This document shows positions 19,435 through 51,355 of a DNA stretch of 51,355 bases, in pieces. Origin of the DNA: Magnetococcales bacterium (lineage in GTDB: Bacteria > Pseudomonadota > Magnetococcia > Magnetococcales > Magnetaquicoccaceae); assembly GCA_011089965.1 (NCBI GenBank), contig JAANAU010000026.1, forward strand, positions 1 through 51,355, written 5' to 3'. Under the pieces are notes generated by a model. It was not told where the DNA came from, searched no databases, and worked only from the letters and a program-made list of their open reading frames with translations. The position numbers and the translations under genes are program-made. The first letter of the stretch is position 1. Each line of letters begins with the position of its first letter.

Positions 19435-19449
19435 GCCGGAATGCCGCTC

Positions 19450-20181: not shown

Positions 20182-20191
20182 CCCCCCCCCC
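20182..20191. repeat. Ten-base C/G homopolymer between cheY-like and cheC-like genes
   Basis: A run of ten C on the plus strand (G10 on the coding strand) lies in the 90-bp gap between the cheY-like stop (20203) and the cheC-like start (20112). An inverted pair, GGACCGG at 20126-20132 and CCGGTCC at 20195-20201, brackets the gap. The run could be a slippage site affecting transcription or an assembly weak spot. Confidence 0.7.
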
Positions 20192-20202
20192 GAACCGGTC
20201 CG

Positions 20203-20562
20203 TCAAGTAAACTTTTTTAATACTTCGGCAATCTTGTTTTCAGCGATGGGTTTCTTGATGAAGCCGATGCCCATGCTTTCTGCCCGTTGATGCATGCGAT
20301 CCTGGATGTTGGCAGTGACCAGATAAACGGCGACCCCCGGACATTTGACCATCAATTTCTCAGCAAGTTCAATACCGTTCATGCCGGGCATGTTGAAATC
20401 GAGCAGCGCCAGTTGCAGGGGCGATTCGGCGAGGGCCAAAGCCTCGGTGCCGTCTTTGGCTTCGATGAGTTGCCAATCTGTAAAGCTGGTGGCAAAGATC
20501 TTGCGGACCATCATGCGTGCCAGACTGCTGTCATCGACGATCAATACTGTTTTATTATCCAT
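20203..20562 (-). CDS. Stand-alone CheY-like response regulator
   Basis: 119 residues, a single receiver domain with no output domain. Acidic pocket Asp10/Asp11 (LIVDDSS), phospho-acceptor Asp55 (LALLDFNMPGMNG), a Thr switch in YLVTANIQ, and a conserved Lys in FIKKPI. ATG 20562 is chosen; a GTG at 20565 is also open and better spaced (7 nt) from GGAG. It sits between CheA and a CheC homologue, so it is probably phosphorylated by CheA and dephosphorylated by CheC. Whether it binds the flagellar switch or another target cannot be told. It lacks the FliM-type context, since no flagellar gene is present. Confidence 0.9.
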   Translation of the reverse strand: MDNKTVLIVDDSSLARMMVRKIFATSFTDWQLIEAKDGTEALALAESPLQLALLDFNMPGMNGIELAEKLMVKCPGVAVYLVTANIQDRMHQRAESMGIGFIKKPIAENKIAEVLKKFT

Positions 20563-20596
20563 CACAAGCGTACTCCAGATTCAAATGAATGACCTA

Positions 20597-22303: not shown

Positions 22304-22353
22304 CTTGTCTCAACCTTGCTGTTGGCAGCCTGTGGCAAAATGCTAAATATTCA

Positions 22354-22382
22354 AGTTTAGCCCATTGTATGCAGGGATTCAA
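22354..22382 (-). promoter_or_regulatory. Candidate sigma-70-type promoter upstream of the CheA gene
   Basis: On the minus strand, TTGAAT (22382-22377) and TAAACT (22359-22354) are 17 nt apart. Each matches four of six consensus bases. Initiation would leave a leader of about 45 nt before ATG 22303. Assigned by eye only. Confidence 0.35.
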
Positions 22383-22413
22383 TCCATATCGTCTTTTTGA
22401 CGACGGGCCAGAT

Positions 22414-23454
22414 TCAGCGTGTCAGGTCATCGGAAAATTGTTTCTGGATCATCAATACCTCCGGCAACAACCCCTTGAAGAGGGGCACCAGATGGGGATC
22501 AAAATGGCGGCCTGCGTTTTCTTCGATGAAACGCAAGGACTCCTCCAGTGGCCAGGCCTTCTTGTAGGGACGATTGCAGTTCAAGGCGTCAAAGACATCG
22601 GCAATGGCGACGATCCGGCCAACCAGCGGAATCTCCTCGCCTTTGAGTCCATTGGGATAACCGCTCCCATCCCATTTCTCGTGATGGGTCAGGGCAATGA
22701 TCCGGGCGTTCTTCAACAGATCATCCGCATGTTCCCCAAGAATCGCAGCTCCCATTTCCGGATGACGCCGCATGATCTTCCAATCCTCCTGATCCAGCCA
22801 GCCCGGCTTCAACAACACGTGATCCGGTATGCCGATCTTGCCAATGTCATGCATCTGGGCAGCACTGAAGATCACTTCGACCATGGCATCTCCCAGACCC
22901 GCAGCCCGGGCCAGCAGCCGGGAGTAGTGACTCATGCGGCGGATATGCATCCCGGTTTCGTAATCCTTGAACTCCGCCATCAGACCCAGACGGTGAATGA
23001 TCTCCTGTCGGGTCCGTTCCAGCTCGGCCGTGCGGCGATTCACCAGACGTTCCAACTCCCGGGTCTGATCCCGCAATGCCAGATGGGTGCGGATGCGTGC
23101 CAACATGATGGCCGGACTGACCGGCTTGATCAGATAATCGACGGCCCCCAGCTCCAGCCCATGTTGTTCATCTTCGATATCATCCATCACCGTGACAAAC
23201 ATCACCGGAATGGGACGGGTATCGGGATTCTCTTTGAGTCGACGGCACACCTCGTAACCATTGATGCCAGGCATCATGATGTCCAACAGAATCAGATCCG
23301 GGGGAGTTCCGGAAAAGGCAATCTTCAAGGCCGTCTCGCCTTGAGTGGCGATGCGAGTCCGGTAGTGGGGATTCAGCACCTCGGTCAACAGGGTGATGTT
23401 GTCCGGGATGTCATCCACGACCAGAATGGTTTGCAAGGGCAAATTCATCGGCAT
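22414..23454 (-). CDS. REC-HD-GYP response regulator (RpfG-like c-di-GMP phosphodiesterase)
   Basis: 346 residues. Receiver 1-125 (ILVVDDIPDN, Asp58 in LILLDIMMPGINGYEV), a coiled-coil linker 130-155, then an HD-GYP domain with ETGMHIRRM, MHDIGKIGIPD and HHEKWDGSGYPNGL, all conserved metal and substrate residues. Family function is hydrolysis of cyclic di-GMP when the receiver is phosphorylated. ATG 23454 has GGGAG at 8 nt. It lies 33 nt downstream of the 1318-aa hybrid kinase, its likely phosphodonor. The receiver closely resembles those of the REC-MBL and REC-HK proteins, suggesting local duplication. Confidence 0.94.
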   Translation of the reverse strand: MPMNLPLQTILVVDDIPDNITLLTEVLNPHYRTRIATQGETALKIAFSGTPPDLILLDIMMPGINGYEVCRRLKENPDTRPIPVMFVTVMDDIEDEQHGLELGAVDYLIKPVSPAIMLARIRTHLALRDQTRELERLVNRRTAELERTRQEIIHRLGLMAEFKDYETGMHIRRMSHYSRLLARAAGLGDAMVEVIFSAAQMHDIGKIGIPDHVLLKPGWLDQEDWKIMRRHPEMGAAILGEHADDLLKNARIIALTHHEKWDGSGYPNGLKGEEIPLVGRIVAIADVFDALNCNRPYKKAWPLEESLRFIEENAGRHFDPHLVPLFKGLLPEVLMIQKQFSDDLTR

Positions 23455-23487
23455 GAAACGGTCTCCCTCCCTGCTCCTGTCAGGCCA

Positions 23488-26400
23488 TCACAGGGTGATC
23501 TGACAGGTGGCGGCAATGGAACGCAGTTTGTCGAGCGCCTCTTCAAACTCATACTGCTCGATCATTCGTTTGATCTGTTCGGCTTCAAGCTCCAGTCCCA
23601 TCTGGTTGAGCTTGTCCGCCACTCCGAATGCCTTGCTGCTGGCTGTGGAATCGTATTCGTTCAGCAGTTGGGCCAACTCCTGCATGTCTGCTGTCAACTG
23701 TTTCAGATCAATCGGTTTGACATTGGCAGGACGTCTGGACCTGGACTGTTGGTTGCGTTCGGCCAAGGCTTGATCGATGGCAGCCAGGAAATCCTGATGT
23801 TCCTTTTCCAGCCGCTCCAGCAGCGGAGTCAGGGCCGATTCCTCTTTGCCCTGCTTGAGACACGCTTCCACCTCACGGGCACGTTCGGTCAGACTGTCAG
23901 CCCCCATGTTCCCTGCCAGACCCTTGAGCGTATGAATCTCACGCAAGGCGGTGGTGAAGTCCTGGGCCTGGAGTGCGGCACGGAACCGTTCCACAAACCG
24001 GTCCTGGGTCTCCCGGAACCGTCCGATCATCCGCAGCAGCAGGTTGACACTGCCCCCCATGCGACGCAATGCCTGGGTGGCGTTCATGCCGGGAATTTCC
24101 GGAACGCCCGATTGGCGTGACTCGATCAGGTTCTGTTCCGGTTCGGCAATGATCATCTGTTCGGTACGTCGTTCGGCCTTGATCCAGCGGGCCAGGGTGG
24201 CGAACATGCGGGCCATGTCGAGGGGTTTGGTGATGTGATCGTTCATGCCGCTGGCCAGACACTGCTCCCGGTCTCCGGCCAAGGCATTGGCGGTCATGGC
24301 CAGAATCGGCAGGGATTGATAACGGGAGTCGCGACGAATGCGTCGGGTGGCTTCAAAGCCATCCATGACCGGCATCTGACAATCCATCAGGATGCCATCA
24401 TAATTCTGATTTTTCAATCGGGTCAGTGCCTCTTCTCCGTTGGTGGCCAGATCCACGTGGATGCCGGCAGTATTGAGAATCTCCAGTGCCAGCTCCTGGT
24501 TGATCGGATGGTCCTCCACCAGCAGCAGATGGGCACCACGTAATGCCTGGAGATATTCGGGCAGAATCTCCTCCGACTCTCCGCATGTGCAACTGATGCC
24601 GGGTTCTCCCAACCGGATGCCGAAACGTCCCGAAAAATGAAAGGTGCTCCCCTGACCGGGTGTGCTTTCGACACGGATTTCTCCATCCATCATCTCAACC
24701 AGACGCTTGCAAATGCTGAGTCCCAATCCGGTCCCGCCATATTTGCGCGAAGTTGAACTGTCGGCCTGAGAAAATGCCTTGAACAGCTTGTTCAGTTGTT
24801 CTGCGGACATGCCGATTCCGGTATCCGAGACGGCAAAATGGAGCCGAATCCCATCCGTGGCAGCAGTCTCCCGGGTGATGACAACCCGCACCACACCTTT
24901 TTCCGTAAACTTGATGGCATTGTTGACCAGATTGATCAATACCTGACCCAGACGCATGCCATCGCCGATCAGACCATCCGGGACATCGGTATCCACCTGG
25001 AACACCAGGCCCAACCCTTTGTCTTTGGCCTTCATGGCGGTCAGATCCGACAGATGTTCCAGCACCAGCTTCAAGGAGAAGTCGGTCTGCTCGACATGCA
25101 TCTTGCCGGCTTCGATCTTGGAGAAATCCAGAATATCGTTGATGATCCCCAACAGACTGCGGGCTGCGTTGTCCACCTTCTGGATATAATTCCTCTGTTT
25201 TTCATTCAAATCCGAACGCAGAGCCAGATGGGTCATGCCGATGATGGCATTCATCGGGGTGCGGATCTCATGGCTCATGTTGGCCAGGAAATCGCTTTTG
25301 GCCTTGGCTGCCTCCTGGGCCTTGGCCATGGCCACGGACAGCTCGCGGGTTCGTTCTTCGACCAGCTCTTCCAGATGCTCTTTGTAGGCTTCGACTTCGT
25401 CACGTGCCCGTTCGGCATCTTCGGCCAGACTCAGGGCGGCCAGACGTTGCCGGAAAAGATCATCGGCAGCCGGGTCGTCCACAAATTGCTCGGCCAGATC
25501 CGGGGCCTGAAAGACCATGCCCCGTCCCCGTTCGATGGCCATGGAATTGACCAAACGCTTCAATTCGATGATGCGCATCTCCCGTCCAACTGCCAGACGG
25601 TTGAACCGTTCCACATCCGCCATGCGATCACGCAGGGCCAGGTTTTCACGCAGTTTCTCTTCGACCAGCCGTTGCTCGGTGATGTCCTGGGTCACCCCAT
25701 ACATGTCCGTGGGTTGGCCCAGAGGATCCCGGACAATATGACCGATGGTGTGCAGCCACACCACCTGACCATCCACCGGTCTTTTGTAGGCATAAGTCGC
25801 ATCAAAGCGATCCACAGTGCCTGCGATGGCTGCCAGGAAATTGGCCCGAGCCGCTTCGGCAGCCTGGGGATTGGCCAACAGCGCATTGGCATACCACTCT
25901 TCGTGCCAGTGGTAGCGCCAGCCGTCCCGTGGAGGATCCCCGCAGATGCGCGCCGTGCGCTCTGAAGAGGTATAGTATTCGTTCTGTTCCAGGGGCAGCG
26001 CAAGATGCCAATGGCCGGCTCTGGCCAGATCCAAGGCATTGTGGCTTAAGAAATTGGCCAACTGCAAACGCTCTTCGGCGAGTTTGCGTTCGGTGATGTC
26101 CTCTTTGACCGCGACAAAATGGGTGATCTGGCCGTGCGGATCGCGGATCGGTGAGATCGAAACCTGTTCGACGATCATGTCACCATTGTTCTTGCGATTG
26201 ACCAGCTCGCCCCGCCAGATCTGTCCCGAGTGCATGGCAGACCAGAGTTCCCGATAACCGGTGCTGTCCTGAATGTCGGCATTCAGCCGCCGCATGTTGA
26301 CACCCACCACCTGATCGGACTGGTAACCGCTGACCTGGGCAAAATGCGGGTTGACATACTCGATGGTGCCATCCTGGGCCGTGATGATCACGCTGGCCGG

Positions 26401-27444
26401 ACTGTTTTCCACAGCCTTGGAAAGAGTCAGCATGCGATCCTGGGCTTGCAGTCGGGCCGTGATGTCCCGAAAAACCATGACCGCACCCACCAGTTTCTCC
26501 TCATGCCGCATGGGTACAACCGTGTATTCGACCGGGAACTGACTGCCATCGGCACGCTGGAAGGGTTCATCATCGCAATGGGCCGCCTCTCCATACCGAT
26601 AGCTGCGGGTCAGACGACTCTCCTCCAAGGGGGCAGGGTGACCATCCGGCAGCCGTGGATGCAGTGCCCCTGGCAGACAGATGCCGTGCAGCTCCTCTTC
26701 GCGGTAACCGAGCAGAGACAAGGCAGCGGGATTGACAAAGATCGCCTGTCCGTTGGTATCCATGCCGATGATTCCATCACTGACCGAGCTGAGAATCAGG
26801 CGGTTGTTGGCTTCCGAGGCACCAAGGGCCTCCTCCGTGGTTTTTTGCAGCGTGATATCCTGGATCGTCCCGACAAAACGGATCGGTTTGTAGTGTTCGT
26901 CCCGCTCCATGATGGCACCGCGCGCGCGCATCCAGCGCACGTGGCCATCCCCGGTCAGGGCACGATACTCCACGTCATAGCGGCCAATTTCACCGGTGAG
27001 ATAATCGTGATGCGTGGCCAGTACCCGCTCCCGGTCGTCCGGATGGATGGTGGCAGCCCAGCGCGTTGCCGACATCTCTCCCACCTCGCGGGGAGAGTAG
27101 CCGAGCATTTTGGCCCAACGGTTGTTGACCTTCATGGTTGCCAGGCGCGGATCATAATCCCAAAAGCCCAACTCCCCTCCGGCCAGGGCCACATTGAGGC
27201 TCTCTTCCACCTGCAAACGGTGTTTGACCTCTTTCTTCAGACGGCGATTCCACAGATAAAACAGAATCACCATCAGCAGAATGAACAACTCGATGGGGAC
27301 TGCCCATGTCAGATCGATGACCAGAAAGGTTCCGGAATCTCCGGCAGGTTCAGCGGCCAGGAGCGAGGCTGGTTGCAGGCTGCTGGCCAGGGTCAGAACC
27401 AGAGGAAAAATCCATGAGACAAGGGTGCGCATGGGGGTATTCAT
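23488..27444 (-). CDS. Membrane multi-PAS hybrid histidine kinase (PAS x4-HisKA-HATPase-REC-HPt)
   Basis: 1318 residues from ATG 27444, which overlaps the upstream flavoprotein stop (ATGA); an earlier frame start at 27483 would run into that gene. An N-terminal signal-like helix and a membrane segment near 42-62 ([15 protein letters not shown]) enclose a very short periplasmic part. PAS/PAC units lie near 75-195, 205-330, 335-460 and 475-600. A coiled coil leads to HisKA ([12 protein letters not shown]), HATPase ([27 protein letters not shown]), one receiver ([23 protein letters not shown]) and HPt ([15 protein letters not shown]). Its tail ([18 protein letters not shown]) resembles that of the 909-aa kinase. 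Inputs are probably cytoplasmic small molecules or redox. Confidence 0.92.
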
Positions 27445-28667
27445 ACCGCCAGACCAGCGGCATGGCCTGATGACCAGGCCCATTGCAGATTGTAACCACC
27501 CAGCCAGCCGGTCACGTCGAGCACCTCTCCGATGAAAAACAGTCCCGGATGGGTTCGACAGGCCAACGTAACAGGATCCATGGCTCGGGTATCCACCCCA
27601 CCCACCGTGACTTCGGCCCGCTCATAACCGCCTGTGCCGCTGGGCGTGATCACCCAGTGGCGCAGGCTGTCCGCCAGCAGCCGCAAATCACGATCTGAGA
27701 TCTCTCCCATGCGACCATCCCTGCCAAAACGCTCCAGCCAGAGAAGGGCCAACCTTCTGGGCAGGAACCGGGATAAAAGGGTACGCAATGCCACGGTTGG
27801 CTCCTGTTCCTTGCTTTGTTTCAGGCGCGCCAACAGATCGATGTCCGGCGTCAGATCCAGGCAAATCTCCTCCCCTGTGCGCCAAAACGAGGAGATTTGC
27901 AGAACGACCGGTCCGCTCATGCCACGATGGGTGAAGAGCAGATCATCGGTGAAGCTGACTTCGCCATGCTGTACTGTGACCGGCAGTGAGACGCCAGTCA
28001 ATGCCTGACAAAGGGTGCGCATCTCTCCGGAACAGCTCAACGGTGTCAAACCTGGCCGGGGTGCGACCACCGGTACGCCGAACTGGCGGGCGATGGCATA
28101 ACCCAAAGGGGTCGCGCCCAATTTGGGCATGGAACGACCTCCCAGGGCGACCACCAAAGCATGTGTTGACCAGGCACCGTGCCGGGTTGTCACCACATAA
28201 CGGTCGTTGTCCGTGTTGATCCGGACAATCTCTTCATGCAACCCGACCCGTACACCCGCCCGTTGACACCCCTTGAACAGCATATCGACCACGGCGACAG
28301 AAGATTGATCACAAAACATCTGCCCCAGTTTTTTTTCATGATAGCCGATGCCATGCCGTTTCATCCACTGCAAAATATCATGCGGGGTGAAGGCTGACAG
28401 GGCTGGGGTGACAAAAGCAGGGAGGGAACTGATATAGTGGCTGGCGTCGGCATGGAGATTGGTGAAGTTGCAGCGTCCTCCACCGGATACATGGATTTTT
28501 TCACCAACCCGGCGGGCATGATCCAACACCAATACCCGGCGTCCCCGCCTGCCGGCCACCGTGGCACACATCAGACCCGATGCGCCTGCACCCAGAATGA
28601 TGACATCCCAATCCACGGTCCTGGTCAAGGGTTGAAAATCCTCAGACGCATGATCATTCACACACAT
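27441..28667 (-). CDS. BaiN/RdsA-family NAD(P)/FAD-dependent oxidoreductase (HI0933/YhiN type)
   Basis: 408 residues from ATG 28667 ([10 protein letters not shown]). The frame is open 36 codons further, but that would overlap the neighbouring gene. The FAD Rossmann motif [14 protein letters not shown] is near residue 21, followed by the family signature [31 protein letters not shown], and the C-terminal [10 protein letters not shown] and [22 protein letters not shown]. Members are widespread flavoproteins; the substrate is mostly unknown, and the name BaiN comes from bile-acid metabolism in gut bacteria. The stop overlaps the start of the multi-PAS kinase by 4 bp, a coupling that could mean a redox link, though this is speculation. 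Confidence 0.88.
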
Positions 28668-37738: not shown

Positions 37739-37777
37739 AATATCGGGTATCACGCAATTCTCTACTGGTTGATTTGC

Positions 37778-37783
37778 AGGAGG
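37778..37783 (+). promoter_or_regulatory. Ribosome binding site deciding the RTX gene start
   Basis: AGGAGG ends 5 nt before ATG 37789. This supports MATFNGTEGSD as the N-terminus instead of the upstream TTG at 37774. Confidence 0.75.
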
Positions 37784-37788
37784 TCCAG

Positions 37789-40700
37789 ATGGCGACATTT
37801 AATGGCACGGAAGGGAGTGACACACTGACCGGTGGTGTGGATAACGACACCTTCACAGGTGGGGAAGGGACCGACAACCTGTTTGGCGGGGAGGGGGATG
37901 ATACCTTTGCGTATTATTATAATACGGAGATCAACGGACTCTCCGAAGCACTGCATGGCGGGGCAGGCACGGATACGATCCAGCTCTGGAACTGGGGATA
38001 CTCCTATGATTTCTCCTCTGCGACTTTGAACAGTATCGAGGTTGTGGATCTGCAATACGGACATGTCACCTTGTCTCCCACACAAATCAACGCCATTGGG
38101 ACGTTTCAAGGCTCTTTGCAAACCAGTGACAACTTCATCTACCTCTCCACTTCTGGTGTGGTCGATTTCAGCCAGAAGGTCATGAACAGTGTGGAACGGA
38201 TCTATGGTTCTTCTGGCGATGATACGATCACGGGCACGGCCTATGCGGATGAGTTGCGCGGGGGATCTGGTCGCGATCAGTTGATCGGCGGTGATGAGAG
38301 CGATGTGCTGTTGGGCGAGGATGGCAATGATACGCTGACTGGTGGTGAAGGGAATGACACCCTGGAAGGAGGGGGTGGAACGGACATCATGTATGGCAGT
38401 ACCGGGGATGATCTGTTCGTTTATCATGAATCCAACGAGATCAATGGACTGGCGGAAACCGTCGATGGGGGAGATGGCACCGACACCATCCGTCTGGTGC
38501 AGTGGTCGGTCAACATGAACCTGACCGCAGCCACTCTGGTCGGCATTGAAATCGTGGATCTGACCTATGCCCATGTGGTTCTGTCTCCAACCCAGCTTGC
38601 CATGATCACCACCTTTGAAGGGTCGGCTACTCAGTCGGATAACTACATCTATCTGGGATCTGCCGGTACGGTCGATTTTTCCACCAAAACCCTGAACAGC
38701 ATTGAAAAAATCTATGGATCGTCCGGAAACGATACGATCACGGGTACGGCCAATGCGGATGTGATTCATGGACAAGCAGGCAGTGACACGATTTCCGGTG
38801 GAGAGGATGCCGACTCGTTGTTTGGTGTGGAGGGTGCAGACACCCTGAATGGCGGGGGTGGCAACGACATTCTGACCGGTGGAACCGGAACCGATACTTT
38901 GCGGGGTGGTGGAGATGATGATCTGTTTGCCTATTCCGATACAGGCGAAATCAATGGTCTGGCCGAAGTGATCGATGGCGGGGATGGATTGGACCAGATC
39001 CAGCTCAGTCAATGGGGAGTGTCGTTCAATCTGGCCTCGGCGGTCATGACCAGCATCGAATCAGTCGATCTGGTCAACTCCCATGTCACCCTGACCGCTG
39101 CCCAGATCGGCATGATCACGACCTTCCAGGGTTCGGCGGGCCAGGCGGATAATTATATTTACCTCAGTGGTGCCGGCACTGTGGATTTTTCCAGCAAAAG
39201 TCTGATCTCCATCGAGCGGATTTATGGCTCATCCGGCAGTGACACGATCACGGGTACGGACAATGCGGATGCGATTGTCGGACAGGCAGGCAGCGATGCC
39301 ATTACCGGGGGCGCGGATAATGATCAGCTCTGGGGCAATGAGGGGAACGATACATTAAACGGTGGCAGTGGCAATGATATCCTGCAAGGTGGGGTGGGGA
39401 CCGATATCTTGCGCGGGGGTCTGGATGACGACATTCTCCAGTATGCCGATACTGTCGAGATCAATGGCCTGGCTGAGGGGATCGATGGCGGGGATGGAAC
39501 GGATACCATTGCTTTTGTCAATCAGTGGGGCACGAACTTCAACTTTGCGGCGGCAACATTCACCAGCATTGAAACCCTTTCGTTGAATTATGCCCATGTC
39601 ACCCTGAATGCCACGCAGTTTGCCATGATCACCACCTTTGAGGGTTCTCCAACTCCAGGTGACAATTATCTCTATCTCAGCAGTGCCGGAACCATCAATC
39701 TCTCCACCAAGACCCTGACCAGCATCGAACGGATTTACGGTTCGACAGGAGACGATACCATCACCGGCACGGCCAATGCGGACGAACTCCATGGTCAGGC
39801 TGGACGGGATATCCTGAATGGAGGGGATGAGGGGGACTCTCTGTTTGGTGACGAAGGGAACGATACCCTGTCTGGCGAAAACGGCAGCGACACGTTGAAT
39901 GGCGGTATCGGGACCGATACGTTGCGGGGTGGTGCCGGAAATGATCAGTTCCATTTTGGTGAGAGCGCCGAAATCAATGGTCTGGCCGAGGTGATCGACG
40001 GCGGTGATGGTGCGGATACGATCCAACTCAGTCAATGGGGCGTGCAATTCAACTTATCCTCTGCCACCTTGACCAGTATCGAAACCCTGGCATTGAACTA
40101 TTCTCATGCCACATTGAGTGCAGCTCAATTTGGTGCTGTGGGTACTTTTCTGGGTTCTGCCACCAGTGACAATTATCTGTATCTGGGGGGATCCGGCAGC
40201 ATTGATCTTTCCACGCGCACCTTGACCAGCATCGAGCGGGTGTATGGGTCGAGCGGAGACGATACGATCACGGGCACGGCCAACGCGGACAATCTGTCCG
40301 GTCAGGCCGGGAATGACATCCTGACCGGTGGGGCGGGCAACGACACCTTGACCGGTGGGGCGGGAACCGACGCCTATCTGTTCCATCCCGGGGCGGGATC
40401 CGATACCATCGACAACAGCACCGAGGCCACGAGCGGGGAGACCAATGCGATCCGGTTCGGCAACACCATTGCCTGGACCAATCTCACGTTTTCGGACAGT
40501 GGCAATGATCTGCTGATCCATTATGGCACCAACGACCAGATCCGTCTGTTGGGCTGGAACAACGCTTGGGATGTCAATGCCCGCAATATCCATCTGGAGA
40601 TCAGCGGTGTCAGCAAGACCATTGAGGAGTTGCGCAATCCCAACGGTCCTGCCGTGACCCTGGAAGGTCCGTCCACGATTCAGGAAGGCAACAGCGGATC

Positions 40701-42240
40701 GAGTGAAGCCACCTACACTGTGCGGCTCTCTTCGGCCTTGAGCAGTGCGGCAACCGTGCAGTATGCCACCTCCAACGGCACCGGAGTGGCGGGCAACGAC
40801 TATACGGCCACGAACGGCACCTTGAACATTCCGGCAGGCCAAACGAGTGTCACCTTTACCGTACCGGTCACGGGTGACACCACCATTGAGCCGAACGAAA
40901 CCTTTACCGTCACGCTTTCCAATCCCAGCGGTGTGAGTCTTGGGACAACGGTGGCAATCACGACCACGATCACCAATGACGACTCGGCCAACAGCGGGAA
41001 TACGATATTCAAAGATACCAGTTACACATTGGCGGGCAATGAGATCAACTTGACTTTGACCGGCAGCGCCCCCATCCATGGGACCGGCAATTCCCTCAAC
41101 AACGTCATCACGGGCAACAGTGCGGCCAATACCCTGACGGGTGAAGGCGGGGCGGATCGGCTGCTGGGTGGATCTGGCAATGATCATCTCTATGGTGGCG
41201 ATGGCGATGACTATCTGAACGGAGGGTCCGGATCAGACCGGATGTTTGGCGGAGCTGGCAATGATACCTATGTGGTGACCTATTCCGGGGATGTGGTCAC
41301 CGAGGAGAGTGGTTCCGGAACGGATCTGGTGGAGAGTTCGATCTCCCTGACCCTTGGCACCAGTGTAGAGAATCTGACCCTGACCGGGACGGCTGCGATC
41401 AATGGCATGGGCAACGGTTCTGACAACATCATGATCGGCAATGCCAGCGACAACACCCTGAACGGCATGGGTGGCAATGACATCCTGCGAGGTGAAGCCG
41501 GTAATGACATTCTGATCGGGAGTACCGGCGATGACACCCTGGAGGGTGGTTCCGGGGCGGATCGGATGATCGGGGGAAGTGGCAACGATACGTATGCAGT
41601 CTCCAACTCCGGGGATAGGGTGGTGGAAGATGCGAGTGCCGGAAACGATCTGGTGCGCAGTTCGGTCAGCCATACCCTGGCGGCCAATGTCGAAAACCTG
41701 ACTTTGACCGGAACCAGTGCGATCAATGCCACCGGGAACAGCCTGGGCAACACCTTGATTGGCAATAGTGCGGCCAACAAACTTTATGGTTATTCCGGTA
41801 ATGACACGTTGAAGGGTGGTTCCGGTCATGACACCCTGTCAGGTGGTACGGGAGCGGATGTATTGGTTGGCGGCAAGGGTGAGGATGTCGTGACGGGTGG
41901 CGATGGTGCGGATCAATTCAAGTTTTTCTATTCATCCGAAGGGGGAGATACCATCACCGATTTCCAGATCACCCAGGGGGATCAACTGCTTTTTGTCAGT
42001 CGGAATTTCGGCAATCTGGCGCCTGGCAAGCTGGATGAGAGTCGTTTGGCCTTCAACAGCACCGGTCGGGCGAGCAACACCACGCAACGGTTTGTTTTCA
42101 ATACGGCAACTGGCATGCTGAAATATGATGCGGACGGGAGTGGTTCCGAGGCCTCCTCTGTGGTCATCGCCACCCTGAACAACACGACCGGATTGACCTC
42201 GACACAGCTGCTCAACCAGTTTGCGATAGTTGCCAGCTAA
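37789..42240 (+). CDS. RTX (hemolysin-type calcium-binding) repeat protein with Calx-beta domain
   Basis: 1483 residues, acidic, with no N-terminal signal peptide; starts MATFNGTEGSDTLTGG. GGxGxDxLxG calcium-binding nonapeptides recur throughout. The first 860 residues hold five modules of about 170 residues, each an RTX block plus a roughly 100-residue segment (INGLAEVIDGGDGTDTI, SQWGVSFNL, TSIERIYGSSGDDTITGTA). Then a haemolysin-related linker (IRFGNTIAWTNLTFSDSGN), a Calx-beta domain near 955-1065 (EGNSGSSEATYTVRLS, NDYTATNGTL, NETFTVTLSNP), and a second RTX region with SVENLTLTG repeats. The C-terminus (DGADQFKF, GGDTITDF, a long beta tail) resembles type I secretion targets. Inferred: exported by a type I system not in the window. 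No protease or lipase motif seen, so it may be structural, S-layer-like or adhesive. Confidence 0.9.
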   Translation: MATFNGTEGSDTLTGGVDNDTFTGGEGTDNLFGGEGDDTFAYYYNTEINGLSEALHGGAGTDTIQLWNWGYSYDFSSATLNSIEVVDLQYGHVTLSPTQINAIGTFQGSLQTSDNFIYLSTSGVVDFSQKVMNSVERIYGSSGDDTITGTAYADELRGGSGRDQLIGGDESDVLLGEDGNDTLTGGEGNDTLEGGGGTDIMYGSTGDDLFVYHESNEINGLAETVDGGDGTDTIRLVQWSVNMNLTAATLVGIEIVDLTYAHVVLSPTQLAMITTFEGSATQSDNYIYLGSAGTVDFSTKTLNSIEKIYGSSGNDTITGTANADVIHGQAGSDTISGGEDADSLFGVEGADTLNGGGGNDILTGGTGTDTLRGGGDDDLFAYSDTGEINGLAEVIDGGDGLDQIQLSQWGVSFNLASAVMTSIESVDLVNSHVTLTAAQIGMITTFQGSAGQADNYIYLSGAGTVDFSSKSLISIERIYGSSGSDTITGTDNADAIVGQAGSDAITGGADNDQLWGNEGNDTLNGGSGNDILQGGVGTDILRGGLDDDILQYADTVEINGLAEGIDGGDGTDTIAFVNQWGTNFNFAAATFTSIETLSLNYAHVTLNATQFAMITTFEGSPTPGDNYLYLSSAGTINLSTKTLTSIERIYGSTGDDTITGTANADELHGQAGRDILNGGDEGDSLFGDEGNDTLSGENGSDTLNGGIGTDTLRGGAGNDQFHFGESAEINGLAEVIDGGDGADTIQLSQWGVQFNLSSATLTSIETLALNYSHATLSAAQFGAVGTFLGSATSDNYLYLGGSGSIDLSTRTLTSIERVYGSSGDDTITGTANADNLSGQAGNDILTGGAGNDTLTGGAGTDAYLFHPGAGSDTIDNSTEATSGETNAIRFGNTIAWTNLTFSDSGNDLLIHYGTNDQIRLLGWNNAWDVNARNIHLEISGVSKTIEELRNPNGPAVTLEGPSTIQEGNSGSSEATYTVRLSSALSSAATVQYATSNGTGVAGNDYTATNGTLNIPAGQTSVTFTVPVTGDTTIEPNETFTVTLSNPSGVSLGTTVAITTTITNDDSANSGNTIFKDTSYTLAGNEINLTLTGSAPIHGTGNSLNNVITGNSAANTLTGEGGADRLLGGSGNDHLYGGDGDDYLNGGSGSDRMFGGAGNDTYVVTYSGDVVTEESGSGTDLVESSISLTLGTSVENLTLTGTAAINGMGNGSDNIMIGNASDNTLNGMGGNDILRGEAGNDILIGSTGDDTLEGGSGADRMIGGSGNDTYAVSNSGDRVVEDASAGNDLVRSSVSHTLAANVENLTLTGTSAINATGNSLGNTLIGNSAANKLYGYSGNDTLKGGSGHDTLSGGTGADVLVGGKGEDVVTGGDGADQFKFFYSSEGGDTITDFQITQGDQLLFVSRNFGNLAPGKLDESRLAFNSTGRASNTTQRFVFNTATGMLKYDADGSGSEASSVVIATLNNTTGLTSTQLLNQFAIVAS
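37927..40380 (+). repeat. Five tandem 510-bp modules within the RTX gene
   Basis: Module starts (the Glu-Ile-Asn-Gly codons) fall at 37927, 38437, 38947, 39457 and 39970, giving spacings of 510, 510, 510 and 513 bp. Copies are clearly homologous in protein but diverged in DNA, so the array is older than the near-identical repeats at 50288. Confidence 0.85.
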
Positions 42241-43954: not shown

Positions 43955-46900
43955 ATGTCTGACAGCCAATCCCCCACCCGTGCGTTGTCTGTGACACCTG
44001 ATTTTCTGATTGCTCCAGAGGAGCTGGCAGAGCTTTTATCCGCCATGGGTACGGGTCAGGGATTGGAGGAGACCTTTGCCCGTCTGTTGACCCTGCACCA
44101 TGCCAAGGCTATGGAGTTTGGAGCCTTGACCGTACATCTGCAACATGCCGACAGTCGTTTTCGTACGGTGCTGTTGCAGGAGTTGAGCAGCGGTGACCCG
44201 CCCTGGGAAGGGTATGAAAATGCCGTGCGGGCCTTCTGGCACGAAATCCGTTTGGCCCTGGCCCCGCGCCAACCCCCGACTGAGGTGAATCGTTTGTTGG
44301 CTGCTTTGGCCGGAGATCAAGAGGCGGTCGATCTGGATCAACTGTTGACCAAAATCAGCCGGGTGGAGCAGGAAAAAAGCGGTCTGGCCAAACAGATGGT
44401 GGGCAACTCCTTGTTGCATGCCTTGGCTGGCGGCAGTGATGGAGATGCGGCCCTGAAGGATGCGCGGGCAGCTGCCCTGGCTGTGGATGACATGTGGCAA
44501 ACCCTGCATGCTGCCGATACTGGGCAGAGCCGTTTTCTGGAACTCTTTTCCCAGGGCGTGGCAGCAGGAGAATCCCTGGAGACGTTGTTCAGCGGTCTGA
44601 TCGCATCCGATCACCCTGATCCCAACGGTGTTGACTCGTTTCAACGTTCCTTGCTGGAAAATCTGGAGCAGGGGAGCAGGCCGGATGGAGCGATTCAACA
44701 GGCAACAGAGGTGGCTCGCACCTCTATTGCCCGATCAGCGGAGTTGCAAGGACCGTTGTCACCCACCATGGCGCTGTTGGCAGCCTTGTCCAGCGGCGAG
44801 AAACTCCAGAACGCCTTGTCTCTGGCTGCCGGAGGTCTGGAAGGAGGAGAGGGGAGTTTCGCGGAAACACTGGTTCAATCTCTGGCAGAGGGGCATGATC
44901 TGACCACGGCCCAGGCCAATGCCACCCAGGCCGTGGCAGCAGCGCGCGAGGCGGCCCATGCGACCAATACGGGAATGGCTTCGCCTGTTGGGGCGTTGTT
45001 GACGGCCATGGCCAGTGGCGGACCGTTGGATCAGGCAGGAGGAGCAGCCTTGCTCTCAGGAAATGGGGCGGCATTGTTTCAACAGGTGTTGTTGGAGATG
45101 ATCCAGGCCGGCAACACGCCATTGCAGGCATTGCAGGGGGCAGTCGAGGCTCCCCGGGCCGTGGCTGCTTTGGGAGGTACTCTGCAGCAGCCGATCACCT
45201 CCGAAGAGGCCCGCTTGATGGTGGCCATGGCCAGCGGTCAGAATCTGGAACAGGCCATGGCCAACCTGCCCGCAGTGCGCGCCTTCTCCGAAACCTTGAC
45301 CGAAACGTTACAGAACGGCGGTTCATTCAGTCAGGCCATGAACGAGGCCAAAGCCGTGGCTGAAGCCATTGCACACAATCTGGCCACACTTCAGAGCAAC
45401 CAGGTGGATCAAACCCTGGTGGCCCTGGCAACCGGTCATGGGGTGGATCGGATCAGCGACATTGCCACGGTCATCGCCCTGGCCAATCAGGAGGCCAGAC
45501 AGACCACAGAGACCATCCGTGCCACGGAGACCAATTCGGATCGAACCAATCCCGTTCCGCCGGTGCAGAATCCGGTGGCCGATGCCAGGCCCGCAGAGAC
45601 CACCCCGACCACCCCGATCACACCGCTGCCTCCTGTGGTGACGCCGCCGGCGTCAGAATCTCCAACCCCTCAGCCGATCCCGGTGCCTGTGCCGGTCTCT
45701 CAGGTGGAGAGTGCCCCGCGTCCCGATAATGTGGTGATTGTGGTCAATGCTCCCCCGACCGATCTGCTGCTGTCCAACCGGGTGGTTGCGGAAAATCAGG
45801 CAGGTGCGTTGATTGGCCGGTTTACCGTGATTGATCCGGATACGGCTGCCGGTGCCACGCTTGCTTTGCTGGACGACCCTTCGGGTCTGTTTGAAATCGA
45901 TGAAATGACTTTGCGTTTGAAATCTGGTCAGTCATTGGATTATGAGGCCAACAGTTTTTATCCCTTGCGGGTGCAGGTGACCGATGGTGCGGGTGCCTCC
46001 CTTCAGAAGCAGTTCACTGTGGGGGTGGTGGATATCAATGAATCCCCTGCTGCTGTAGCTCTGTCCAGCCGTACGATTCCGGAAAACAGTACCGGAGTTA
46101 CGGTTGGGCAGCTTTCGGCCCAGGATCCGGATCAGGGGGATACGCTCACCTGGTCACTGGTGGCGGATGGTGCCGGACGGTTTGAGATCGTTGCGGGCAA
46201 TTTACGGTTAAAGAATGATGTGGTCTGTGATTTTGAGCAGAATCCGGTACAGCGCGTGACCGTACGGGCAACGGATCGGGCAGGTGCATATGTGGAGGAG
46301 TTGCTGACCATCACCGTGTTGGATCTGAACGAACCACCCGATAATCTGACCCTGTCGTCAGCGGAAGTGCGGGAGAATCGGGTGGCTGCCACCATCGGCA
46401 CGCTGCGGGTTGTGGATCCGGATCTGGGGGACAGGATCACATTGACTCTGGTCGCAGACCCCAGTGGGTTGTTCGTCCTGGAAGGGAACACTTTGCAACT
46501 CGGTGCAGGCAAGGCTGCGGATTTCGAGTCCGGAACCAGCCATGAAGTGCGGATCCGGGCCACGGATTCCGGGCAGTCCAGTATGGAAAGGAGCTTTACC
46601 ATTGCGGTGCTGGATGTGAATGAAGCCCCGCAAGAGATCTCCCTGTCGGGTCGGTGGATTGCGGAGCGAACCTTGGGGGCTGTGGTCGGGTCATTGTCGG
46701 CATTGGATCCGGATCGTGGGGATGCGGTCTCATGGCGTTTGGTGAATGATGATTCAGGTTTGTTTGAAATTAATGGTTCAACACTGAAACTGTTGGCAAC
46801 CGCTTCGGTTGATGCAGCCTTGGCCGAATCCTTAACGGTGCGGGTACAGGCCACGGATCGGGCGGGTTTGAGTCTGGAGCAGACGTTTACCCTGATGGTG

Positions 46901-49900
46901 GCCGGGGTGAATGATCCCCCGAGCGGGATTGTGCTTTCTGCCACTCAAGTGGCAGAAAACGATGCAGGGGCCTTGATCGGCAGGGTTCAAGCCATGGATC
47001 CGGATCCGGGCGATGTGGTACGGGTGGAACTGGTGCAGGATGGCAGAGGGTTGTTTGAGTTGCGTGATGGAGCGCTCTATTTACGGCCAGGCGTCACTTT
47101 GAATTATGAGGAGGATGCCGCTCATGCTGTGGTATTGCGTGCTGCGGATGCAGGCGGTCTGACGTATGAGCAAGGATTCACCATTGTCGTCACCGACCGC
47201 AACGAACCGCCAACCGGAATGCAGATCTCCAGCACTCTGGTCTCAGCCTCCCGTTTGGGGGCAGTGGTGGGCACGTTGAGTGTCGAGGATCCAGACCTTC
47301 ATGATCAGGCCAGTTATGTGTTGATCCGCGATCCTTCGGGTCTGTTTGAGATCTCCGGAACCACGCTTAAGGTACGCGACGGTCAAAATGCACAGTCGGG
47401 CGGGGCCAGCGAACATCGTGTGACCATACGTGTGACCGATGGGGGGCAGCATGCCCTGGAGCGGGAGTTTCGCATTCAGGTCACGGATCAGCAACATCCT
47501 CCCACGGATATCTTGTTGAACTCCGACTGGATTGTGGAAAATCAACCAGGAACGGTCGTGGGTTCGCTGATGGTGGTGGATCCGGATCCGGGGAGCGGCG
47601 CTACATTGACTCTGGTCCGCGATCCATCCGGACTGTTCGAGATTGTCGGGACGAGTTTACGTGTGCAGTCAGGTGTGAGCCTGGATTATGAGGCCGCGGA
47701 TCATTACGTGTTGCGGGTGCGCGCCACGGACAATACCCAGGCCACATTCGAGAAGAATCTGACCGTCACGGTACGCAATGTCAATGAGCCTCCGGTGGAT
47801 GTGACCCTTTCCACGTTGAGCGTGAATGAGAACCAGCCTGGTGCCATGGTGGGAACATTGACCGTCGTGGATCCGGATGCCAACGATACGGCAATGGTGA
47901 CGTTGGTGGAGGATGGTTCGGGTCTTTTTGAGGTGCGTGGCAGTGGCCTGGCCCTGAAGGCAGGAATGGCGGTGAATTATGAACAGGCTGCCGGGTATAC
48001 CGTACGTGTGCGTGCAACTGATGCGGACGGGGAGCGTTTGGAGAAGGAATTCACGATTGCGGTCAATGACGTGAATGAGGCACCGACTGCCCTGATTTTG
48101 AGCGGTGGAGAGGTCCGGGAGAATCTTTCCGGAGCTGTTGCCGGACAGGTTGTGGTAACCGATCCGGATGCCGGGGATGTTGTGACCGTGAGCCTGGTCT
48201 CCGATCCATCCGGATTGTTCCAGATGGTTGGCACAGAGTTGCGGCTGTTGGCCAATCGCTCTTTGGACTATGAAGCGGCTGCGTCCCATCAGGTACGTCT
48301 GGCAGCCACGGATCGGGTGGGTGCCACTCTGGAACAGAGCGTCACAATCATGGTGCGCAATGTCAACGAGGCCCCGACGCAGGTAGTGCTTGACAATACC
48401 AGTTTGGCGGAGAACAACCCGGGCGGCGTGGTCGGGACACTGTCGGTGGTGGATCCGGATCGGGATGATGGGGTCACATATTCATTGGTCCATGATGGGA
48501 CTCTGTTCGTCCTGGATGGGGAGCAGGTGCGTCTGCAATCAGATGTGGCAGCAGATTATGAACAGACATCGACCCACACCGTGCGTGTGCGTGCCACGGA
48601 TCGGGCCGGGGCCAGTGTGGAGGAGTCGTTTGTCATTCAGATTGTGGATCTCAATGAACCGCCGGTTGATTTGCAGATCTCCGGGCACAGCGTGGCCGAA
48701 AATCTTGCGGGTGGTGTCATTGGATCTTTGTCGGCGCGCGATCCGGATGCGGAGGATGTGATCCGCTACTCTCTGGTGGCCAATCCGGGTGGTCTGTTTG
48801 CCATTTCCGGGAACACTCTGCGTCTGGCGGATGGGGTCTCTTTGAATTATGAAGCAGATGCCATGCATACGATCCGGGTTCGTGCCACGGATCGTGACGG
48901 GGCAGCCGCTGAGTTGGATGTTGGCATTACGGTGACGGATCTCAACGAAGTTCCAACCGATGTGGTCTTGTCCACCTCCACCGTGCCCGAGGATACGGCA
49001 GGGGCTGTGGTGGGGAGATTGTTGGCAACCGATCCGGATCGTGGGGACAGTGCCCGGTTTGCCCTGGTGTCCGATCCCAGCGGTTTGTTTGAGATTGTCA
49101 ACGACCAACTGCGTCTGAAAGCCACAGCCAAGGCCAACTATGAGGATCCGGGTTCGTATCTGGTGGGGGTGCAGGTGACAGATGGGGCGGGGTTGAGCCT
49201 GGAGAAGAGTTTGACGGTTACGGTCACCAATCTGAATGATCCCCCGGGCGCAACCGGGCTGTACGCCCCGGAGAGTCTGGTGGAAGATGGTGCGCCCCTA
49301 CGTTTGAGTCCCATCCAGGTGAGTGATCCGGACAGCACCAATATTGTCGTGACCTTGACTTTGAGTTCTCCGGGAGCCGGTCGGTTTGAGGTTGGGAGTT
49401 CCGGTGCCGTGAACTCAACCTTTGATGGCACCACCTGGAGTGCCAACGGTTTGCTGAAGGATGTGAATCTTCTGTTGTCCCGTTTGACCTTCACCCCGGC
49501 TCTTGATTGGGATCAATCCTTTACCATCGCGACTTTGGTGAGTGATGGGGGTATGGCTTTGCAGGGAGTCAAGGCGGTCACGGTGCGTGCGGTCAACGAT
49601 GCACCAGTCCATACCATTCCTGCGGCTCAGAGTGTGTACGAGGATGCCGAGTTGCGCATCAACGGTCTGACGGTTGCCGATCCGGATGCTGCTGATCGGT
49701 TCATGCAGATGGCACTCCGGGTGGATCACGGCGTGCTGACTCTGAACCGGACCACGGGCTTGACCTTTTTGAGTGGCGATGGTGTTGCAGATGCGGAAAT
49801 GATCTTTTCAGCCACCCAGGCCAATCTTCGGGCAGCCATAACCGCGCTGCTTTATCATGGTGAACGGGATTTCCATGGACAAGAGAGATTGACGGTCACC

Positions 49901-51355
49901 ACCAGTGATCTGGGGCATTCCGGTTCCGGGGGAGTGCTGACAGACACGGGCCAGGTGATCATCACCGTACAACCGGTCAACGACGTGCCAATAATCACCA
50001 GTCATGGCGGGCGTGACCGTGTCGCGCTTGAGATGGTTGAGAACATGACCCTGGTGACCACATTAACCAGCGTGGATCCAGACCTGGAGAGAGTGGAGTA
50101 CTCTTTGGCCGGCGGATCGGATCAGGCGCGTTTTGTCCTGGATCAGGGGGTGTTGTCGTTCACAGCCCCACCTGATTTTGAGATGCCGCAGGATACGGAT
50201 CGCAACCACACTTATGAGGTGGTGGTCAAGGCCACAGATCGTGCCGGTGCTTTTGCATCTCAGACCATCACCGTGACCGTCACCAATGTCAATGAGGCTC
50301 CCTCCATCACGAGCAATGGGGCCATTTCGGTTCAAGAGAACACCACAGCCGTTACCACCTTGATTGGCACGGATCCGGAAAACGGGAATCTGACCTGGTC
50401 ATTGAGTGGTGGTGCGGATCGCAATAAATTTGCTCTGAATGGTGGGGTGTTGACTCTGCTGGCAGCCCCGAATTACGAATCCCCGACCGATACCGATGAG
50501 AATAACAGCTATCTGGTGGAGGTGACGGCCACCGATGCAGGGGGATTGACCGCAACCCAAACCATCACCGTGACCGTGGCCAATGTCAACGAGGCTCCCA
50601 CCATCACGAGCAATGGGGCCATCTCCATCAATGAAAATACCACCGCCGTTACCACCTTGATTGGTACGGATCCGGAAAACGGGAATTTGACCTGGTCATT
50701 GAGCGGTGGTGCGGATCGCAATAAATTTGCTCTGAATGGTGGGGTGTTGACTCTGCTGGCAGCCCCGAATTACGAATCCCCGACCGATACGGATGAGAAT
50801 AACAGCTATCTGGTGGAGGTGACGGCCACCGATGCAGGGGGATTGACCGTAACCCAAACCATTACCGTGACCGTGGCCAATGTCAACGAGGCTCCCTCGA
50901 TCACGAGCAGTGGGGTCATTTCGGTTCAGGAGAACAGCACAACCATTACCACCTTGATTGGCACGGATCCGGAAAACGGGAATTTGACCTGGTCATTGAG
51001 CGGTGGTGCGGATCGCAATAAATTTGCTCTGAATGGTGGGGTGTTGACTCTGCTGGCAGCCCCGAATTACGAATCCCCGACCGATACCGATGAGAATAAC
51101 AGCTATCTGGTGGAGATGACGGCCACCGATGCAGGGGGATTGACCGCAACCCAAACCATTACCGTGACCGTGGCCAATGTCAACGAGGCTCCATCCATCA
51201 CGAGCAGTGGGGCCATTTCGGTTCAGGAGAACACCACCGCCGTTACCACCTTGATTGGCACGGATCCGGAAAACGGGAATCTGACCTGGTCATTGAGTGG
51301 TGGTGCGGATCGCAATAAATTTGCTCTGAATGGCGGGGTGTTGACCTTCCTTGCT
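43955..51355 (+). CDS. Giant cadherin-repeat protein with novel helical N-terminal repeats (3' truncated by window)
   Basis: ATG 43955 with AAGGA at 43943-43947 (7 nt); open for 2467 codons to the window end. There is no signal peptide. Residues 1-540 are alpha-helical with a loose tandem repeat of about 70 residues (LLAALSSGEKLQNAL, LLTAMASGGPLDQA, LMVAMASGQNLEQAM). A Thr/Pro-rich linker (about 545-590) follows. Then 12 cadherin-like repeats of about 97 residues (about 45754-49240; PTDLLLSNRVVAENQAG, DPSGLFEI, LDYEA), a different Ig-like domain (about 49240-49600), one domain of the type found in the adhesin at the start of the window (49600-49985), and cadherin repeats of 99 residues that become nearly identical from 50288. 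DxND and DPD motifs suggest calcium binding. Role inferred: a very large surface adhesin, probably type I secreted; the C-terminus is not visible. Confidence 0.88.
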   Translation, partial: MSDSQSPTRALSVTPDFLIAPEELAELLSAMGTGQGLEETFARLLTLHHAKAMEFGALTVHLQHADSRFRTVLLQELSSGDPPWEGYENAVRAFWHEIRLALAPRQPPTEVNRLLAALAGDQEAVDLDQLLTKISRVEQEKSGLAKQMVGNSLLHALAGGSDGDAALKDARAAALAVDDMWQTLHAADTGQSRFLELFSQGVAAGESLETLFSGLIASDHPDPNGVDSFQRSLLENLEQGSRPDGAIQQATEVARTSIARSAELQGPLSPTMALLAALSSGEKLQNALSLAAGGLEGGEGSFAETLVQSLAEGHDLTTAQANATQAVAAAREAAHATNTGMASPVGALLTAMASGGPLDQAGGAALLSGNGAALFQQVLLEMIQAGNTPLQALQGAVEAPRAVAALGGTLQQPITSEEARLMVAMASGQNLEQAMANLPAVRAFSETLTETLQNGGSFSQAMNEAKAVAEAIAHNLATLQSNQVDQTLVALATGHGVDRISDIATVIALANQEARQTTETIRATETNSDRTNPVPPVQNPVADARPAETTPTTPITPLPPVVTPPASESPTPQPIPVPVPVSQVESAPRPDNVVIVVNAPPTDLLLSNRVVAENQAGALIGRFTVIDPDTAAGATLALLDDPSGLFEIDEMTLRLKSGQSLDYEANSFYPLRVQVTDGAGASLQKQFTVGVVDINESPAAVALSSRTIPENSTGVTVGQLSAQDPDQGDTLTWSLVADGAGRFEIVAGNLRLKNDVVCDFEQNPVQRVTVRATDRAGAYVEELLTITVLDLNEPPDNLTLSSAEVRENRVAATIGTLRVVDPDLGDRITLTLVADPSGLFVLEGNTLQLGAGKAADFESGTSHEVRIRATDSGQSSMERSFTIAVLDVNEAPQEISLSGRWIAERTLGAVVGSLSALDPDRGDAVSWRLVNDDSGLFEINGSTLKLLATASVDAALAESLTVRVQATDRAGLSLEQTFTLMVAGVNDPPSGIVLSATQVAENDAGALIGRVQAMDPDPGDVVRVELVQDGRGLFELRDGALYLRPGVTLNYEEDAAHAVVLRAADAGGLTYEQGFTIVVTDRNEPPTGMQISSTLVSASRLGAVVGTLSVEDPDLHDQASYVLIRDPSGLFEISGTTLKVRDGQNAQSGGASEHRVTIRVTDGGQHALEREFRIQVTDQQHPPTDILLNSDWIVENQPGTVVGSLMVVDPDPGSGATLTLVRDPSGLFEIVGTSLRVQSGVSLDYEAADHYVLRVRATDNTQATFEKNLTVTVRNVNEPPVDVTLSTLSVNENQPGAMVGTLTVVDPDANDTAMVTLVEDGSGLFEVRGSGLALKAGMAVNYEQAAGYTVRVRATDADGERLEKEFTIAVNDVNEAPTALILSGGEVRENLSGAVAGQVVVTDPDAGDVVTVSLVSDPSGLFQMVGTELRLLANRSLDYEAAASHQVRLAATDRVGATLEQSVTIMVRNVNEAPTQVVLDNTSLAENNPGGVVGTLSVVDPDRDDGVTYSLVHDGTLFVLDGEQVRLQSDVAADYEQTSTHTVRVRATDRAGASVEESFVIQIVDLNEPPVDLQISGHSVAENLAGGVIGSLSARDPDAEDVIRYSLVANPGGLFAISGNTLRLADGVSLNYEADAMHTIRVRATDRDGAAAELDVGITVTDLNEVPTDVVLSTSTVPEDTAGAVVGRLLATDPDRGDSARFALVSDPSGLFEIVNDQLRLKATAKANYEDPGSYLVGVQVTDGAGLSLEKSLTVTVTNLNDPPGATGLYAPESLVEDGAPLRLSPIQVSDPDSTNIVVTLTLSSPGAGRFEVGSSGAVNSTFDGTTWSANGLLKDVNLLLSRLTFTPALDWDQSFTIATLVSDGGMALQGVKAVTVRAVNDAPVHTIPAAQSVYEDAELRINGLTVADPDAADRFMQMALRVDHGVLTLNRTTGLTFLSGDGVADAEMIFSATQANLRAAITALLYHGERDFHGQERLTVTTSDLGHSGSGGVLTDTGQVIITVQPVNDVPIITSHGGRDRVALEMVENMTLVTTLTSVDPDLERVEYSLAGGSDQARFVLDQGVLSFTAPPDFEMPQDTDRNHTYEVVVKATDRAGAFASQTITVTVTNVNEAPSITSNGAISVQENTTAVTTLIGTDPENGNLTWSLSGGADRNKFALNGGVLTLLAAPNYESPTDTDENNSYLVEVTATDAGGLTATQTITVTVANVNEAPTITSNGAISINENTTAVTTLIGTDPENGNLTWSLSGGADRNKFALNGGVLTLLAAPNYESPTDTDENNSYLVEVTATDAGGLTVTQTITVTVANVNEAPSITSSGVISVQENSTTITTLIGTDPENGNLTWSLSGGADRNKFALNGGVLTLLAAPNYESPTDTDENNSYLVEMTATDAGGLTATQTITVTVANVNEAPSITSSGAISVQENTTAVTTLIGTDPENGNLTWSLSGGADRNKFALNGGVLTFLA
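50288..51355 (+). repeat. Near-identical 297-bp tandem repeats (at least 3.6 copies, continuing past the window)
   Basis: Copies start at 50288, 50585, 50882 and 51179, each exactly 297 bp apart, encoding 99-residue cadherin-like domains (GTDPENGNLTWSLSGGADR). They differ by only a few bases per copy, far less than the preceding domains. The array runs into the window end, so its true copy number is unknown. Confidence 0.95.

Follow-up and report, generated by a model that had tools for sequence, protein, structure and literature searches.

A six-repeat helical domain of Magnetococcales giant adhesins as a candidate N-terminal retention module for type I secretion

The locus described here raises the question of what kind of domain opens a giant surface protein of the Magnetococcales, bacteria of the magnetotactic type, and what it does there. 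The window, a stretch of 51,355 nucleotides analyzed at its full length, coincides with an entire contig (G000:C69); the assembly totals 3.66 Mb. The 5′ part of the giant's gene lies at the end of the window (Table 1). The encoded protein begins with a helical domain, which is followed by a proline-rich linker and a long beta-sandwich array. The initial annotation placed this domain ahead of a cadherin array, which Pfam supports for the window protein but which is not general among the relatives described below. It also denied that the domain is a signal peptide, and no signal peptide or hydrophobic N-terminal stretch was found by hydropathy in the first 520 residues, where the maximum 19-residue hydropathy is 1.17 and a membrane segment is absent. 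In lacking an N-terminal signal peptide and in being acidic and Cys-poor, the giant has traits of type I secretion system (T1SS) substrates. In the open reading frame just upstream, 18 stretches of RTX calcium-binding repeats accompany a Calx-beta domain, and its product is probably a second secreted RTX protein. Elsewhere, the window carries several large signal transduction genes, including those for a response regulator, hybrid histidine kinases and a CheA-like protein.

Table 1. Coordinates of the features discussed, in the window unless another contig or locus is named.
Feature	Location	Strand	Remarks
5′ part of the giant surface protein, 2467 codons	43955..51355	+	ORF still open at contig end
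N-terminal helical repeat domain, residues 1-520	43955..45514	+	No Cys, net charge -32, 17.5% Ala
Repeat 1, residues 26-91	44030..44227	+	Iterated profile 32.2 bits
Repeat 2, residues 109-179	44279..44491	+	Iterated profile 30.3 bits
Repeat 3, residues 200-257	44552..44725	+	Iterated profile 33.2 bits; repeat-profile search E 8.8e-8
Repeat 4, residues 269-337	44759..44965	+	49.6 bits; 26.1 bits with profile free of window sequence
Repeat 5, residues 343-406	44981..45172	+	Iterated profile 41.0 bits
Repeat 6, residues 416-477	45200..45385	+	52.5 bits; 19.8 bits with profile free of window sequence
Half repeat 7, residues 485-500	45407..45454	+	Iterated profile 5.6 bits
Proline-rich linker	45515..45748	+	Composition: ~22% Pro, no Cys
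Cadherin / bacterial Ig-like array	45749..51355	+	Pfam: Cadherin 409 bits, Cadherin_4 191 bits, Big_9 155 bits
ORF with RTX repeats, probable second secreted RTX protein	37774..42240	+	1488 codons
Large signal transduction genes	12489..27480		
Ser/Thr kinase genes	L011 4986-6314; L148 1489-2763; L149 13651-14949; L150 3850-5133; L014 14193-15488		66-92% identical to G011
FecR/LapA-retention-like giant, window genome	G000:C75:19167-19370		Open frame of 6586 aa
FecR/LapA-retention-like giant, window genome	G000:C30:83065-83256		Open frame of 5783 aa
FecR/LapA-retention-like candidate, window genome	G000:C47:58032-58223		1234 aa
FecR/LapA-retention-like match	G006:C111:34342-34536		Open frame of 9909 aa
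Giant of G036:C156	L069 2027-9910		FG-GAP repeats replace cadherin array

The domain is a tandem of six units of about 73 residues and one half unit, which together occupy residues 26-500 (window 44030-45454). Each unit is taken as two helix-Gly-turn-helix hairpins. The first half of the unit is of the type P-x-x-x-L-L-x-A-L-A-S-G-x-x-x-x-x-A-L and the second of the type F-x-x-x-L-x-x-x-L-x-x-G-x-x-x-x-x-A-x-x-x-A, and an alignment of 37 repeats from twelve proteins shows conservation of 90% or more in one A column and two G columns. From start to start, the repeats are 70-89 residues apart in the window protein and 54 to 104 across the members, mostly 70-78. The initial annotation had described a tandem alpha-helical repeat, with a unit of about 70 residues, in at least four loose copies, near positions 44766, 44985, 45210 and 45405. 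These positions correspond to residues 271, 344, 419 and 484, the starts of repeats 4, 5 and 6 and of half repeat 7. The copies are therefore real, but the limitation to four is not, as repeats 1-3 had been overlooked. The six-repeat helical tandem is real and larger than first noted.

Taken by itself, the window sequence carries a weak repeat signal. Autocorrelation gives marginal peaks at lags 31, 73, 69 and 150 (z 3.3-3.9, compared with a 95% shuffle maximum of 3.3), self-BLAST of the domain finds no off-diagonal match, and an hhalign self-match of the single sequence reaches 90% probability (E 1.9e-6). The proof of the repeat thus rests on the relatives. When nine repeats from five distant relatives were made into a profile, with the window's own repeats excluded, it matched the window protein at residues 268-333 (26.1 bits) and 416-475 (19.8 bits) and weakly at 348-405 and 224-257. 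The profile-profile self-comparison that had been proposed as a check was made with a ten-member alignment, and it shows the repeats as off-diagonal matches over columns 17-492 with 99.9% probability and an E of about 1e-34, while the reversed control reaches 85% and 5.8e-6, which is 29 orders of magnitude weaker. Moreover, the iterated profile, which contains most of the sequences counted here, finds 113 domains of at least 7 bits in the real sequences and 6 in reversed or shuffled ones, the latter with a maximum of 12.8 bits. The ten domains align colinearly with their G and A columns conserved, and the identity of the relatives to the window domain drops to 22-26%.

Structure prediction agrees with the helical nature of the repeat, as both AlphaFold models are all-helical, albeit of low confidence. 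With the window and L010 rows only, the mean pLDDT of the domain is 49.5, and a two-repeat fragment with the window and L010 repeats as rows reaches 59.9. The best-modelled part is the hairpin of the second half, in which two helices meet at the conserved Gly and pLDDT is about 78-92 by ten-residue block. A Foldseek search of the PDB returned no match at E up to 0.001, from a query model of low confidence that is too weak for matches to carry meaning.

The initial annotation did not recognize the family, and it is indeed absent as a named family from Pfam, NCBIfam and PHROGs; the one Pfam match, to T2SSF, fails its controls, as discussed below. No relatives were found in viral contigs, plasmids or PHROGs, and a scan of genome contigs yielded a single relative, L010, from a Magnetococcales bacterium metagenome bin. 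Within the order, the repeat profile detects the domain in 16 of 48 Magnetococcales genomes and 7 of 17 genera at E up to 1e-5. With the whole-domain profile the count is 17 of 48 (E no greater than 1e-3), which includes two matches that were not accepted, a weak one in G040 (E 7.0e-4) and one in G024:C123 (E 7.9e-4), which lies in a different kind of ORF; G024 is counted as a carrier on the strength of contig C360. Outside the order, each profile gave one match among 398 Pseudomonadota genomes, which were drawn evenly with members of the order included and of which the best 3 or 15 candidates per genome were scored, so that rare distant members could escape. Both matches, in G261 and G297, were rejected as look-alikes in which a single hairpin occurs in another protein. 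The G261 frame is presumably a ribokinase, and we take that of G297 to be a PP2C phosphatase. Within the genomes searched, the domain appears to be confined to the Magnetococcales. A search of open-licence PMC papers found none on this domain or on such a helical repeat in giant adhesins.

The window genome has one copy of the domain, G010, G011 and G036 have two giants each, and G026 has matches on two contigs. Six full units are found by the iterated profile in 17 of the 19 T1SS-type members counted, where an overlapping 3.4-bit match in G011:C13 was discounted and G026:C182 ends at a contig edge within its sixth unit. The exceptions are G036:C156, with a probable seventh unit, and G024, with four clear and several partial units. 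In the T1SS-type members, the domain starts close to the initial Met or to where the frame opens, and no signal peptide was noticed in them; the exception is G036:C122, where a prefix of about 95 residues precedes it. The linker, taken as at most 100 residues following the last repeat, consists to 53-92% of P, S, T, A, V, E and Q in the 17 members with sequence there, of 18 tabulated. Its Pro content ranges from 0% in the Glu/Gly-rich linker of G026:C120 to 40%, with 22% in the window protein, so this low-complexity segment is usually, but not always, Pro-rich. In the G036:C156 member the linker is a long repeat of the Gly-Gln-Pro-Pro-Met-Gly type. The suggestion that the domain might always precede cadherin arrays does not hold, as the arrays vary and one relative carries the repeats at its C-terminus. 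Cadherin follows the linker in the window protein and G010:C17, Cadherin_4 in G036:C122, G020 and G014, and Big_9 and FG-GAP in G014 and G036:C156, and no convincing Pfam array was found in G016 and G027.

Linkage to type I secretion is direct at some loci. Complete TolC, ABC and HlyD genes adjoin the helical giant on one contig in G011, G008, G020, G014 and G027. In the window genome, contig C44 opens with a 495-codon C-terminal giant fragment, the first ~160 nt of which match repeats close to the window end at 83-88% identity. This fragment is followed by a convergent cluster as in G011, which encodes a protein kinase, a 160-residue protein, HlyD, ABC and TolC, and G010 C75 has a C-terminal giant fragment with the same cluster, gene order and C-terminal domain. 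C69 and C44 very probably carry the two ends of one gene, with no read spanning the assembly gap, and the T1SS linkage of the window protein would run through C44 across that gap. Altogether, cognate ABC, HlyD and TolC genes are linked on the same contig at 5 of the 17 loci compared, which do not include G019 and G026:C182, and beside a C-terminal fragment at 2 more. No T1SS genes were found in the flanks examined at the other 10 (G011:C13, G010:C17, both G036 loci, G043, G016, G012, G013, G026:C120 and G024), where several contigs are short and the G011:C13 flank covered about 51 kb. Additionally, the ABC ortholog group (at least 64% identity, with the next best at 44%) occurs in 5 of the 48 genomes of the order, G000, G008, G010, G011 and G016, each of which has helical giants. 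Six other helical-giant loci share the Ca-binding-like domain at the C-terminus of the G011 giant. No Pfam family was found for the 160-residue protein next to HlyD. Beside the 3′ end of the giant and the T1SS cluster, a gene for a Ser/Thr protein kinase is kept in all five genomes compared (G000, G008, G010, G011 and G016); at the G016 kinase gene (L150) no giant is in view.

The same genomes possess a second type of N-terminal module. The claim that the helical domain is not a LapA-type retention module stands on sequence grounds, since window 43955-45700 has no NCBIfam match at E up to 1, NF033682 included. Proteins in 18 of 18 family genomes do match NF033682, all below its cut-off and usually over about positions 4-68 of 145, and the one such protein tested with Pfam is FecR, over the cut-off. 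In G010, G011, G012, G013 and G016, a paralogous ABC gene, 41-46% identical to the ABC of the G011 helical locus, lies about 0-2 kb from the end of a giant with this FecR/LapA-retention-like module. Two paralogous systems thus appear to differ in the N-terminal module of their giants. The two types are bridged by G036:C122, in which the helical module comes after a prefix like that of FecR-type giants (E 2.1e-5 with Z set to 10000). The window genome itself has two FecR/LapA-retention-like giants and a third, shorter candidate, and the largest open frame among the matches listed belongs to G006 (Table 1). A LapG-type protease (BTLCP, PF06035) is present in 14 of the 18 family genomes. None was found in the window genome at E up to 10, so LapG-type release is unlikely here; retention would be either permanent or ended by some other release route.

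The relative with C-terminal repeats is a two-partner secretion (TPS) protein in one genome, G038. It is a TpsA protein of 5866 residues with ESPR and TPS domains, and a ShlB/FhaC partner gene lies directly upstream of its own. The repeats, at residues ~5484-5782, are preceded by a long Ser/Thr/Ala-rich stretch and followed by a C-terminal tail of about 80 residues; they match the whole-domain profile at E 2.1e-10 and the independent repeat profile, from which G038 was excluded, at E 6.4e-9. Type I substrates exit C-terminus first, as described for SiiE in PMC6272769, and in TpsA proteins of the HMW1/HxuA kind the C-terminus stays periplasmic, as described in PMC5422565. From these two directions it follows that the module would lie at the last-leaving end in both routes. 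The position of a TpsA anchor, a C-terminal segment with a TpsB partner, is found in the G038 relative only and not in the window protein.

These observations are best accommodated, with moderate confidence, by a role of the helical domain as the N-terminal, last-out retention module of a type I-secreted giant adhesin, that is, as its envelope anchor. By analogy with known T1SS and TPS biology, the giant would be exported C-terminus first through a TolC-ABC-HlyD channel, and its beta-sandwich array would pass the channel and fold outside. The six-repeat domain would enter last and either fold in the periplasm before passage or jam in the channel; in either case it would hold the adhesin in the envelope while the Pro-rich linker threads the pore. 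This reading draws on the repeat and its conservation, the terminal position, the linkage to T1SS genes, the exchange with a FecR/LapA-like module and the mirrored C-terminal position in the TPS relative. It is further favored by the retention of six repeats in 17 of 19 members although identity has dropped so far, and by an acidic, Cys-free domain without a membrane segment. It is weakened by the 10 of 17 loci where no T1SS genes were found in the flanks examined, the poor models, which show no fold too large for the pore, the sub-cut-off FecR/LapA-like matches and the restriction of the TPS case to one genome. A bolder version, which is offered tentatively, is that the helical block is a last-out plug independent of the secretion route, the same fold having been grafted on whichever end is last to leave, N-terminal for type I substrates and C-terminal for two-partner secretion. 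The six units, nearly fixed in number, might then close on themselves as a ring or barrel and cap the channel, with a possible match to the sixfold HlyD/TolC conduit.

The strongest competitor to an envelope anchor, although a doubtful one, is that the domain is fully secreted and has an adhesive, spacer or matrix-binding role outside, at the cell-proximal end. The giant is a surface protein, many adhesins bear extra domains beside their arrays, and sequence would probably not distinguish the compartments. Against this, the domain is at or near the last-exiting end in all members seen, whether N-terminal in T1SS proteins or C-terminal in the TPS protein. It also swaps with the FecR/LapA-retention-like module, and its unit number is nearly constant.

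A second and less likely alternative is a cytoplasmic location, or one at the inner-membrane ATPase, where the domain would act as a stall or docking tail and control how the ABC transporter is engaged. An N-terminal, acidic and soluble domain without a signal peptide would suit such a role. The N-terminal part of LssB and LapB is a C39-like domain. The ABC protein has its best match to LssB, below the cut-off of that model and from model position 152 on, and without those ~150 N-terminal positions another docking element may be required. However, the G038 relative combines the same repeats with an export signal (ESPR), which a purely cytoplasmic role would misfit.

Alanine-rich drift, in which loose repeats have no specific function, is very improbable: the high Ala and Gly content and the weak similarity of the repeats within a protein when relatives are left aside would fit it, but ten colinear domains with conserved columns, a constant unit number and the far weaker reversed controls would not. 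Least credible of all is kinship with the GspF/PilC helical domain (Pfam T2SSF, PF00482), which was rejected: the isolated domain scores 27.0 bits against a cut-off of 25.2, 4 of the 10 members reach E 0.1 or better and a local helix-x-x-G-x-x-L-x-x-A-helix pattern is shared, yet a model built from 30 T2SSF domains scores reversed or shuffled sequences as well as real ones (real mean 3.7 and maximum 13.8 bits, reversed mean 4.4 and maximum 17.1), the hhalign probability of 5.9% is near the 3.5% and 2.6% of reversed controls, other proteins with a single helix-Gly-turn-helix hairpin (the ribokinase-like and PP2C-like ORFs) also match the repeat profiles, and, unlike in GspF, no transmembrane helices were found by hydropathy within residues 1-520.

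Studies of giant-adhesin retention have dealt mostly with LapA, both its module and its protease. If the anchor reading is correct, a second and all-helical module occupies the LapA-like slot in genomes that use both, which would mean that retention was invented more than once. It would also offer a natural way to test if size or folding by itself arrests a substrate in a TolC-type channel. In addition, a TPS protein with this repeat at its other end makes the rule that the last end out is the anchor directly testable. The domain also supplies a recognizable surface-protein family for the Magnetococcales, a hard-to-culture group.

In comparison with known systems, a terminal anchoring module of secreted giant adhesins is filed as a known kind, whereas the sequence family is filed as new. 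Like the LapA-type module, the helical domain is an N-terminal module of a T1SS giant adhesin that lies ahead of repeat arrays with T1SS genes nearby. It differs in being all-helical and repetitive, while the LapA-like module tested is FecR-like, and the LapA/LapG system is further set apart by LapG, which was not found in the window genome. SiiE likewise has a helical N-terminal part in a T1SS giant adhesin, and PMC6272769 describes its coiled-coil as required for retention at the surface. In contrast to the single coiled-coil between two beta domains of SiiE, the domain here has six 73-residue double-hairpin repeats, a distinction drawn from architecture and not from sequence comparison. The TpsA anchors of HMW1, HxuA and CdrA are similar in tethering the trailing end of an exoprotein in the periplasm, as given in PMC5422565, which also has CdrA released by LapG, and the G038 repeats occupy that position. 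Their means differ, as HMW1 and HxuA use a small disulfide loop and CdrA a LapG-cleaved tail in place of a long helical repeat, and the N-domain of the window protein has no Cys. Finally, the best sequence-profile matches in the PDB are de novo designed helical repeat proteins (E 1.7e-6 and weaker), generic repeats of amphipathic helices; these are artificial, and no homology with the domain of the giant is implied.
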